From Patescibacteria group bacterium (GTDB lineage Bacteria; Patescibacteriota; Minisyncoccia; Minisyncoccales; JANBVM01), in assembly GCA_024238995.1 (NCBI GenBank), contig JANBVL010000005.1:1-43297 (forward strand): DNA of 43,297 nucleotides. The letters run 5' to 3'. Position 1 is the first letter of the stretch. Each line of letters starts with the position of its first letter. The translations under genes were made by a program, and so were the position numbers. Shown here one piece after another: positions 28,877 through 31,534 of this stretch. A model generated the notes under the pieces. That model worked only from the letters and a program-made list of their open reading frames with translations. It did no database searches and was not told the origin of the DNA.

Positions 28877-29773
28877 ATGGCCACATTATATACTCATGCG
28901 GATTCTAATATTCGCAAGACTTGGATTTTATTGTTTTTGTTTTTAATTCTAATTATTGGATTAGGCTGGTTTTTTAGTTATTATTATGAGAATAATTTAT
29001 TTTTAATTATTGCGATTGTTTTAAGTTTAAGCCAAGGCGTAGCTAGTTTCTGGTTTTCAGATAAAATTGTGCTGTCTATGACTGGTGCAAAAGAAATTCA
29101 AAAAAAAGACAATCCAGAGCTTTACAGAATTGTTGAAAATTTAGCCATTACTGCAGGGCTTCCTATGCCAAAACTATATATTATTAATTCAGCCCAGCCC
29201 AATGCTTTTGCAACAGGAAGAGATTATGATCATGCTGTTGTTGCTGTGACTCGTGGACTGCTGGAAAAGCTAGAAAGAGCTGAACTTGAAGGAGTAATTG
29301 CTCATGAGTTAGCCCATATTGGGAATAAAGATATGTTATTGGGAACAGTGGTCGTTGTTTTGGTTGGAATTGTAGCACTATTATCAAGGATGTTTTTAAG
29401 AATTAGTTTTTATTCAGGAGGAAGTAGAAGGAAAAGAGGTAAGGATTCTTCCGCTGGAGTTATTATGGTTTTAGGAGTAATTGGAGCAATATTGGCGCCA
29501 ATTATTGCTATTTTGATTCAGTTGTCAATTTCAAGAAAAAGAGAGTTTTTAGCTGATGCGTCTGGAGCGCTTTTAACAAGATATCCTGAAGGATTGGCCA
29601 GAGCTTTGGAAAAGATATCTAGCGATAAAACACCTCTGAGAACTGCTGATAGTTCTACTGCTCACTTATATATTTCTAGTCCTTTTAAAGAAAAAAACTG
29701 GTTAACAGGCTTGTTTTCCACTCATCCTCCAGTTGAAAAGAGATTAAAAGCTTTAAGAGGAATGAAGGTTTGA
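28877..29773 (+). CDS. htpX: Membrane metalloprotease HtpX
   Basis: A zinc-dependent M48 protease that degrades damaged membrane proteins. Two N-terminal helices (~15-33 and ~40-58), then the zinc motif HELAH (residues 143-147), two further helices (~153-172 and ~195-217), and the third zinc ligand in REFLADASGALLT. It ends STHPPVEKRLKALRGM, a conserved block near the C-terminus of the family. 298 residues, full length. Likely in one operon with lemA. The first part of a tRNA-Ser-like sequence starts 34 bases after the stop. Confidence 0.95.
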   Translation: MATLYTHADSNIRKTWILLFLFLILIIGLGWFFSYYYENNLFLIIAIVLSLSQGVASFWFSDKIVLSMTGAKEIQKKDNPELYRIVENLAITAGLPMPKLYIINSAQPNAFATGRDYDHAVVAVTRGLLEKLERAELEGVIAHELAHIGNKDMLLGTVVVVLVGIVALLSRMFLRISFYSGGSRRKRGKDSSAGVIMVLGVIGAILAPIIAILIQLSISRKREFLADASGALLTRYPEGLARALEKISSDKTPLRTADSSTAHLYISSPFKEKNWLTGLFSTHPPVEKRLKALRGMKV

Positions 29774-29806: not shown

Positions 29807-29830
29807 GGAGAGGTGCGCCGAACGAGCGAA
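29807..29830 (+). repeat. tRNA-Ser 5' fragment
   Basis: GGAGAGGTG is identical to the first nine bases of the tRNA-Ser gene at 30832, and the next ten bases match at six positions (15 of 19 overall), covering the acceptor 5' strand and part of the D arm. After that the similarity ends and no 3' half follows. It lies on the far side of the LAGLIDADG gene. Confidence 0.65.
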
Positions 29831-29880
29831 TTATCTAAAACAAGTTGATTGTTCTCATAAATAACAAATAAAATAGATAT

Positions 29881-30963
29881 ATGTTTCGGATTAGGTTTAA
29901 AAAACAATCACAATTTGATTTCCTTAACAATATTAGAAAGAGATTAGAATTCAATTGGTCCCAATTAGCAAAGTTTTTAGGTGTTCATCCACGCTCTTTA
30001 TCGGATTGGAAAGCGGGAAAATATACGTTACCCGAAGAAGTTTTTAAAAAATGTACCGAGATTGTAAAGGGAAAATCAGATATTCCTTCTTATGAAATTT
30101 TGCCGAACTTTTGGAATACAAAAGAAGCGGGGAGAAAGGGCGCTTCGGCGGTGAAAAATGCCCACAGGAACAAACGTTTAAATCTAAGAAAAGAAATTTT
30201 AAGAAAAAAAATATTCAAACCCAGAGAGACATATCAATTGGCAGAATTTTTCGGTATTCTTCTAGGAGATGGCGGGATTACTGACAATCAAGTGATCGTT
30301 TCATTAAACAGGAAACATAGCAAAGATTATTCCATGTTCATCAGTGAGATGACAAGAAAACTATTTAAAATTAAGGCCCCCGTCTATTATTACCACACTC
30401 GATCGCATAAAAATGATATTACGGTAACAATTTCCAGCAGAAACCTAATAGAATTTCTATTATTAAAAGGGCTTAAGAAAGGAAGTAAAGTTCGACAACA
30501 GATTGGAGTTCCCTTATGGATTCAAAACGACATTCAATTTTCGAAAGGTTGCCTCAAGGGATTAATTGATACTGATGGTGGAGTTTACTATCATCGACAC
30601 CAAGTCCAAGGACACAAATGCTTCAATATAGGTTTATGTTTCACGAACAAATCAGTGCCAATTTTGATATTCGTCCAAAGGACACTTGAGCAATTAGGAT
30701 TTACACCAAAACTGAATAAAAGAAGCGTTAATTTATATCGGGAGCAGGAAGTAGCTAAATATGCTAGAGAAATTGGATTTAGTAACGCTTATCATCTTGA
30801 TAGATTAAAGGAATTTTTCAAAATGAAGTATGGAGAGGTGAGTCGAATGGTAAGACACATGCCTGGAAAGCATGAGCCTCGCAAGGGGTTTGCAGGTTCG
30901 AGTCCTGTCCTCTCCGCATTATTAGTATTTTGTATGTTGTATTTAGTTAAAAAATATGGATGA
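29881..30963 (+). CDS. LAGLIDADG endonuclease with N-terminal helix-turn-helix, reading through tRNA-Ser
   Basis: A 360-residue frame. Residues ~26-48 (NWSQLAKFLGVHPRSLSDWK) look like an XRE-type helix-turn-helix. The two LAGLIDADG helices are LAEFFGILLGDGG (120-132) and CLKGLIDTDGG (224-234), each with an acidic end. The strands between them are rich in Lys, Tyr and Arg. From codon 318 on, the frame runs through the whole tRNA-Ser gene and ends inside the next gene, so the last ~43 residues are translated tRNA sequence; no stop precedes the tRNA. RNase P cleavage would cut the message there. It is likely a homing endonuclease of the same kind as the one beside tRNA-Leu, though only distantly related to it. 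Confidence 0.85.
   Translation: MFRIRFKKQSQFDFLNNIRKRLEFNWSQLAKFLGVHPRSLSDWKAGKYTLPEEVFKKCTEIVKGKSDIPSYEILPNFWNTKEAGRKGASAVKNAHRNKRLNLRKEILRKKIFKPRETYQLAEFFGILLGDGGITDNQVIVSLNRKHSKDYSMFISEMTRKLFKIKAPVYYYHTRSHKNDITVTISSRNLIEFLLLKGLKKGSKVRQQIGVPLWIQNDIQFSKGCLKGLIDTDGGVYYHRHQVQGHKCFNIGLCFTNKSVPILIFVQRTLEQLGFTPKLNKRSVNLYREQEVAKYAREIGFSNAYHLDRLKEFFKMKYGEVSRMVRHMPGKHEPRKGFAGSSPVLSALLVFCMLYLVKKYG
30832..30916 (+). tRNA. tRNA-Ser (GGA)
   Basis: 85 bases, class II. Acceptor GGAGAGG/CCTCTCC. The anticodon stem CATGC/GCATG holds CTGGAAA, anticodon GGA. The variable arm has CCTC-GCAA-GGGG and the T arm GCAGG-TTCGAGT-CCTGT. Discriminator G; CCA is not encoded. The gene is complete and without an intron, but all of it is also in frame with the upstream LAGLIDADG gene. 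Confidence 0.95.
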
Positions 30964-31534
30964 TAATAAAATTACTAATTTCTTTTTTGAAATCGCTACA
31001 TTAAGACGATTAACGCGTTCTCATCGTCAGATGATTCAAGAGGTGAGTGATAATATTTCTGACCATAGCTTTCGGGTTGCCATTATTGGTATGATTTTAG
31101 CTAATCTTGAGCAGTGTGATGAGAATAAAGTTTTAAAAATGTGTTTATTTCATGACGTTGCAGAAGCTAGAATAGGTGATGCGAATTTTATTAATCAGCA
31201 GTATATTGATGCACGGGAAGAGGAAGCATTTAAGGATCAAATGCAGGGATTGCCTATTTCTGAAAAAATGATAGGAATTATAAAAGAACGTGAAGAGCAG
31301 AAAACCAAAGAAGCTGTAGTTTCTAAAGATGCTGATTTGCTTGATCAAATGGTTCTACAGCAGGAATATTTTTATAAAGATGAAAAAAATCGTAAAATAT
31401 GGCAGAACCATTCAGAAAAAAGTTTAAAAACAGAATCAGCAAAAAAATTAGCTAAAAAAATTAGGCAATCAAACCCCTTTGAATGGCTTTATCAATTAGC
31501 TGACGATAAAAGAAATCAAATAATTAAGCGATAA
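30956..31534 (+). CDS. HD-domain hydrolase (YfbR/5'-nucleotidase-like)
   Basis: A 192-residue HD-superfamily phosphohydrolase. Metal ligands: His37 in SDHSFRVA, His66-Asp67 in CLFHDVAEARIGD, and the later Asp in VSKDADLLDQM. The segments LTRSHRQM and NISDHSFRVAII, and the HDVAEARIGD motif, match YfbR-like deoxynucleoside 5'-monophosphatases and related HD_3 proteins. A role in nucleotide salvage or pool cleaning is inferred from the family. The ATG overlaps the nominal end of the LAGLIDADG frame by 8 bases and lies 39 bases after tRNA-Ser. Confidence 0.85.
   Translation: MDDNKITNFFFEIATLRRLTRSHRQMIQEVSDNISDHSFRVAIIGMILANLEQCDENKVLKMCLFHDVAEARIGDANFINQQYIDAREEEAFKDQMQGLPISEKMIGIIKEREEQKTKEAVVSKDADLLDQMVLQQEYFYKDEKNRKIWQNHSEKSLKTESAKKLAKKIRQSNPFEWLYQLADDKRNQIIKR

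Follow-up and report, generated by a model that had tools for sequence, protein, structure and literature searches.

Homing endonuclease genes that appear to break tRNA-Ser genes and supply the replacement in Patescibacteria

Background

Homing endonuclease genes (HEGs) usually lie in introns or inteins, or between genes, and integrative elements, which use integrases, restore tRNA 3' ends. For a HEG set against a tRNA gene in the manner described below, the closest precedents appear, by analogy, to be the mobile ORFs of fungal mitochondria (PMC3630166) and the phage endonuclease SegB (PMC13096335). The former are known from atp6 of Allomyces and from atp6, atp9, cox2 and nad3 of Glomus, and their endonuclease has been shown biochemically to drive mobility, according to PMC3630166. 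SegB, a free-standing homing endonuclease of the GIY-YIG type, is described in PMC13096335 as cutting inside tRNA genes. The literature searched, drawn mostly from outside the subscription journals, yielded no description of the HEG-tRNA arrangement itself.

Here, I describe a LAGLIDADG gene and its family relatives, starting from a 43,297-nucleotide stretch of contig JANBVL010000005.1 of a Patescibacteria group bacterium (assembly GCA_024238995.1; hereafter, the window). Like the mobile ORFs (PMC3630166), the endonuclease ORF seems to have entered a gene while bringing a replacement end for that same gene, the native end being displaced to the far side and remaining nearer to close relatives than the replacement is; unlike them, found at the 3' ends of mitochondrial protein genes, it would have acted, judging from sequence, on a bacterial tRNA gene, either at its 5' end or over its full length. 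With SegB it shares a free-standing endonuclease gene near tRNA genes, yet SegB is a phage GIY-YIG enzyme encoded loosely, at 1 kb or less from tRNA clusters, whereas the present genes are of the LAGLIDADG type and hold a fixed place 5' of one isoacceptor; the replacement of a tRNA end, apparent here, is not found in the available part of PMC13096335. LAGLIDADG genes occur in RNA genes of the same bacterial group too, inside rRNA insertions (PMC11270868, where a term search returns no mention of tRNA), but the present locus has no intron and a complete tRNA downstream.

Results and discussion

The window locus and its endonuclease gene

A first-pass annotation of the window had proposed a LAGLIDADG gene between a tRNA-Ser 5' fragment and a full tRNA-Ser(GGA), the latter being recovered by both ARAGORN and Rfam (Table 1). 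The gene itself is confirmed by Pfam over a frame of 360 codons, 29881-30963 (LAGLIDADG_3, 3.5e-8; HTH_3, 1.4e-5); its supposed end, on the other hand, is a read-through stop, the conservation seen in alignments ceasing at about 30834. Pfam returns LAGLIDADG_3 and HTH only, the GIY-YIG nuclease domain being absent from the window HEG. The acidic residues D130 and D232, one per LAGLIDADG motif, are invariant in alignments of 12 and of 42 sequences. An AlphaFold model (mean pLDDT 93) has the LAGLIDADG fold with an N-terminal helix-turn-helix (HTH), and the best match among solved structures, by sequence (5.2e-7) and by fold (2.4e-10), is I-Tsp061I (PDB 2dch), an archaeal, intron-encoded enzyme whose match lacks the HTH part that the window HEG possesses. 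Judged by motifs and model, the window gene is a single-gene, free-standing LAGLIDADG homing endonuclease with predicted cleavage activity. Just 5' of its start lies a possible promoter element, and many relatives have TATAAT at the corresponding position.

Table 1. Features of the HEG locus in the window
Feature	Positions	Strand	Evidence
M48 peptidase gene, conserved left neighbour, used for locating empty sites	28877..29773	+	Pfam Peptidase_M48 1.9e-35
Old tRNA-Ser(GGA) 5' remnant, GGAGAGGTGCGCCGAA	29807..29822	+	16/16 against tRNA 5' ends of HEG-free G002, G003, G004
TAAAAT, possible -10 promoter element just 5' of HEG start	29869..29874	+	weak, by eye, sequence only
Conserved part of HEG, HTH and LAGLIDADG homing endonuclease, ~318 aa	29881..30834	+	Pfam, alignments, model, fold match
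N-terminal helix-turn-helix part of HEG	29920..30063	+	HTH_19/HTH_3, residues 14-61
LAGLIDADG motif 1 (LAEFFGILLGDG), acidic D130	30238..30273	+	G129 D130 G131 invariant
LAGLIDADG motif 2 (CLKGLIDTDGG), acidic D232	30550..30582	+	D230 T231 D232 G233 invariant
Read-through tail in the HEG frame, spanning the entire tRNA	30835..30963	+	ORF list, translation
Replacement tRNA-Ser(GGA), intact	30832..30917	+	ARAGORN, Rfam
Altered D-arm of replacement tRNA	30841..30857	+	14/18 aligned columns equal to empty site
HD-domain gene, right neighbour	30956..31534	+	Pfam HD_3 8.8e-24

On another contig (C4) of the same genome, a second HTH-LAGLIDADG gene (L004, 1460-2491), 42% identical to the window HEG, stands directly 5' of tRNA-Ser(GCT), which is followed by tRNA-Ser(TGA); a clear 5' remnant was not found there.

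The empty site behind M48

Along 70 M48 loci, the next tRNA gene on the same strand is tRNA-Ser(GGA) in most, no more than 50 bases away in some and past an ordinary gene in others; M48 with tRNA-Ser(GGA) behind it is the ancestral state for the taxonomic order of the host. Three genomes of the same family without a HEG at this place (G002, G003, G004) have a single tRNA-Ser(GGA) 7 to 32 bases past M48, and the 5' end of that tRNA is in all three identical, 16/16, to the window remnant, which has decayed past 29822. An empty site consisting of one tRNA-Ser with the upstream flank of the fragment is what the first-pass annotation had predicted. It had counted the likeness of the fragment to the intact tRNA of the window correctly (first 9 bases the same, 15/19 overall), but this imperfect match would be weak evidence if alone, the decisive one being that to the empty sites of the relatives. 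Allowing up to 4 mismatches, the remnant 16-mer has just two occurrences on the two strands of the window, one at 29807 (no mismatch) and one in the intact tRNA (2 mismatches); a search of the same genome found no second near-identical copy of the window tRNA-Ser(GGA).

Compared with the empty site, the intact tRNA of the window has AGTCGAA in place of CGCCGAA, together with further changes in the D-arm that preserve pairing, and is 55/60 identical to that of G002 outside the altered part. The same insertion is present in G001, of the same genus, with a slightly diverged remnant. Since the short stretches that separate M48 from the tRNA fail to align, the insertion junctions are not placeable to a single base. 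Empty sites and remnants together support what had been proposed from the window, namely an insertion into a tRNA gene, with an intact copy downstream and the old 5' end left stranded.

LAGLIDADG genes are frequent in introns, and the rRNA genes of CPR bacteria contain such insertions (PMC11270868), which would invite reading the window HEG as lying within a tRNA intron, with the remnant as 5' exon. Yet Rfam, at gathering thresholds, finds in the window three tRNAs only and no group I intron, the downstream tRNA is complete, and remnant and intact tRNA are different alleles; an intron is accordingly a very improbable explanation.

In many relatives a gene of about 176 aa separates M48 from tRNA-Ser; these genes are zinc-ribbon-like and ordinary, and are not HEGs. 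The HD gene was dropped as a right-hand anchor since it lies away from M48 in G003. Truncated HEG remnants, i.e. decaying copies, stand between M48 and tRNA-Ser(GGA) in L085 and L131, and in the HEG-free L077 the 3' end of M48 is repeated downstream of M48, before tRNA-Ser(GGA).

Two further insertions at the same locus

The displaced native end equals the empty allele of relatives at three loci, namely the window, L209 and, nearly, L134. In L209 (Nomurabacteria) the remnant, GGAGGGTTCGCATAGTGGTCTAGTG, is the tRNA-Ser(GGA) 5' end of the HEG-free L249, L258 and L265 at the same locus, and the intact tRNA of L209 itself (GGAAGGGTGTACCGAATGG...) is of another type throughout, T-arm and acceptor included, so that the entire tRNA, not only its 5' part, seems to be foreign. 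In L134 (Yanofskybacteria) the remnant is one base off the HEG-free L287 over 25 bases, near-equal to L286/L287, and the intact tRNA at this locus belongs to a different type. The replacement D-arm is unlike the native one in all three.

A fixed place 5' of tRNA-Ser

In a scan of 84,980 genomes, 387 relatives of the HEG were found among the 577 pattern matches listed, and the loci of the best 80 of the 387 were examined. Where downstream sequence was available (77 of these 80), the next gene downstream on the same strand is a tRNA-Ser in 76/77 and lies within 100 bases in 75/77, overlap of the HEG frame with the tRNA being frequent. The 76 isoacceptors are GCT (31), CGA (21), GGA (18), TGA (5) and ACT (1), and the hosts include Patescibacteria, Omnitrophota and others; a strong HEG match was present in 15/286 other genomes forming an even sample of the phylum. 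When the isoacceptor is mapped on the HEG tree, in which phyla are mixed in places, it changes 10 times, against 37.5 with shuffled labels (0/200 shuffles as low): to judge from this tree, HEG lineages are isoacceptor-specific. Remote LAGLIDADG relatives in viral contigs do not share the arrangement, none of the 25 checked (of 34 loci) preceding a tRNA likewise and two having tRNAs elsewhere in the locus.

tRNA 5' remnants across the family

A first attempt, in which upstream DNA was compared pairwise with the adjacent tRNA, gave a weak signal (4/74 at p<=0.01), because remnant and neighbouring tRNA are different alleles. It was replaced by a general 17-base profile of the tRNA-Ser 5' end, with HEG-free controls. 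Upstream of HEGs this profile scores 6.5 bits on average, against 0.7 in shuffles and -2.9 on the reverse strand, and its matches cluster close to the HEG, at distances up to about 100 bases; scores of at least 14 bits were reached upstream of 15/75 HEGs, against 1/74 HEG-free regions behind M48 (Mann-Whitney p 7e-10). At this strict threshold a remnant is kept at about one fifth of tRNA-Ser loci, being decayed or absent at many, and the better ones stop, by eye, near tRNA positions 16-26. The suggestion that LAGLIDADG genes with far-side tRNA 5' fragments might be sought in CPR genomes has thus proved fruitful, such genes being widespread there.

That the intact D-arm is selected to differ from the remnant did not hold as a general statistic: there is no significance against random tRNA-Ser (Wilcoxon p 0.72). 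Remnant D-arms are no nearer to their own intact tRNA than to HEG-free tRNAs. A Mantel test gave no clear signal of the tRNA 5' half alone co-travelling with the HEG. HEG distance correlates with the tRNA 3' part no less than with the 5' part, and carriage of the 5' part alone is therefore unsupported as a general rule.

It may be asked whether two adjacent tRNA-Ser genes had arisen by tandem duplication, the HEG hitting the first while the second stayed intact. Paired tRNA-Ser genes do occur in some relatives (GCT-TGA; GGA-CGA in L048), but empty sites (G002, G003, G004 and many others) have a single tRNA-Ser(GGA) behind M48, the remnants are no more like the neighbouring tRNA than like random ones, and the constant place 5' of four isoacceptors and of tRNA-Gln (see below) would be left unexplained, all of which makes a duplication decidedly unlikely.

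The first-pass annotation had regarded the locus as the mirror image of the strategy of integrative elements. As in these, a tRNA gene is the site of mobile DNA and the tRNA is left functional, and it is indeed the 5' end that is stranded; the parallel does not extend to the agent, for in place of an integrase and a restored 3' end there is a lone endonuclease gene. Could an integrase-type element nonetheless have restored the tRNA, the HEG being a later passenger? The tRNA 3' halves downstream in some HEG-free relatives (L256, L270) would fit, but between remnant and tRNA of the window there is no integrase, the HEG being the sole gene (ORFs, Pfam), every locus examined holds a one-gene unit, and a general 3' remnant past the intact tRNA was not found across 75 HEG loci, where the mean is at control level and a strong match occurs only in L202, with partial ones in L147 and L158. 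This is the least credible of the explanations considered.

Some 3' sequences deserve mention in their own right. Repeats resembling a tRNA 3' end (GTGACCGAATCC...), possibly attachment-site-like, lie 120-200 bases past the tRNA in L147, L158 and L200. In the HEG-free L270 (minus strand, about 1480 to 1250) an intact tRNA-Ser(GGA) is flanked by tRNA-Ser pieces, a 5' fragment on the upstream side and a 3' half downstream, an arrangement possibly left as a scar by an element, since lost, with a whole tRNA on board. In L256 a tRNA-Ser 3' half, from near the anticodon on, lies downstream of tRNA-Ser(GGA), its acceptor strand being that of the older tRNA type of the lineage.

A second probable tRNA target and a possible tRNA-derived start codon

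A separate, more distant HEG family lies directly 5' of tRNA-Gln(CTG) in 6/6 loci, five of which have a clear 5' remnant, e.g. TGCGGGGTCGTCTAATGGTAGG, reaching just past the D-loop. Another HEG relative (L344) stands directly 5' of tRNA-Tyr(GTA), where an obvious remnant was not found, and suggests that more tRNA targets exist.

One clade comprises 31 HEGs, most of them 5' of tRNA-Ser(GCT); its start region, GGAGATATGGCTGAGTTGTTTAAA, is similar to the usual tRNA-Ser start, GGAGAGGTGGCTGAGTGGTTTAAA, the start ATG corresponding to tRNA positions 7-9. Among 29 clade starts, 25 score above the 95th percentile of 379 other ATGs from the same loci (p 3e-13), although the top scores of two of the 29 (L198, L208) belong to another tRNA-like site farther upstream and are to be discounted. 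By this resemblance, the remnant seems to have turned into the start codon and first codons of the HEG, presumably by descent from the tRNA.

This clade, with its well-conserved tRNA-like sequence exactly at the start codon and right behind TATAAT, and the HTH of the enzyme are what would favour regarding the upstream sequence as a kept binding site of the HTH, either operator or decoy target, and not as a scar. However, at three loci (the window, L209 and L134) the remnant has the sequence of the tRNA 5' end native to the host lineage, an identity not expected of a donated operator, and a scar is compatible with a later regulatory role; a binding site in place of a scar is unlikely.

Proposed mechanism

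The preferred reading, to which a probability of about 0.83 is assigned, is that free-standing HEGs break tRNA genes within or close to the D-arm while supplying a substitute tRNA part, probably one that their own enzyme leaves uncut. Where a tRNA-Ser gene is still unoccupied, the HTH-LAGLIDADG enzyme would cleave it in this region, and repair, presumably gene conversion, would copy the HEG plus the tRNA part immediately downstream; the host would retain a working tRNA, with the front of the old one stranded beyond the HEG (in the window, 29807-29822, the replacement being 30832-30917). The altered D-arm of the new tRNA would probably shield it against the enzyme, and protection by this route is plausible. 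As far as the genomes compared can tell, the empty site, the remnant, the D-arm change, the family-wide place 5' of tRNA-Ser and the isoacceptor-specific lineages are all in evidence. As to whether a 5' part or a whole tRNA is carried, the window is compatible with either, and L209 points to apparent replacement of the whole at some loci.

Conclusions

To sum up, an essential RNA gene appears to be broken here by a homing gene that survives by supplying the replacement, which would mean that a selfish gene can rewrite tRNAs. The odds are about even that these HEGs form an old and large class of selfish genes living by tRNA gene breakage and replacement in small-genome bacteria, spreading enzyme-resistant tRNA alleles between lineages and repeatedly swapping the D-arm or the whole body of tRNA-Ser and tRNA-Gln, one clade having taken its start codon and first codons from a tRNA half. 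The family yields candidate endonucleases with predicted targets close by, as well as a case where a tRNA half seems to have turned into a protein start. It also suggests, in a form open to testing, why tRNA-Ser D-arms vary as they do in Patescibacteria: if the broader view is true, the unusual variety of tRNA-Ser in small-genome bacteria would be partly driven by selfish DNA.
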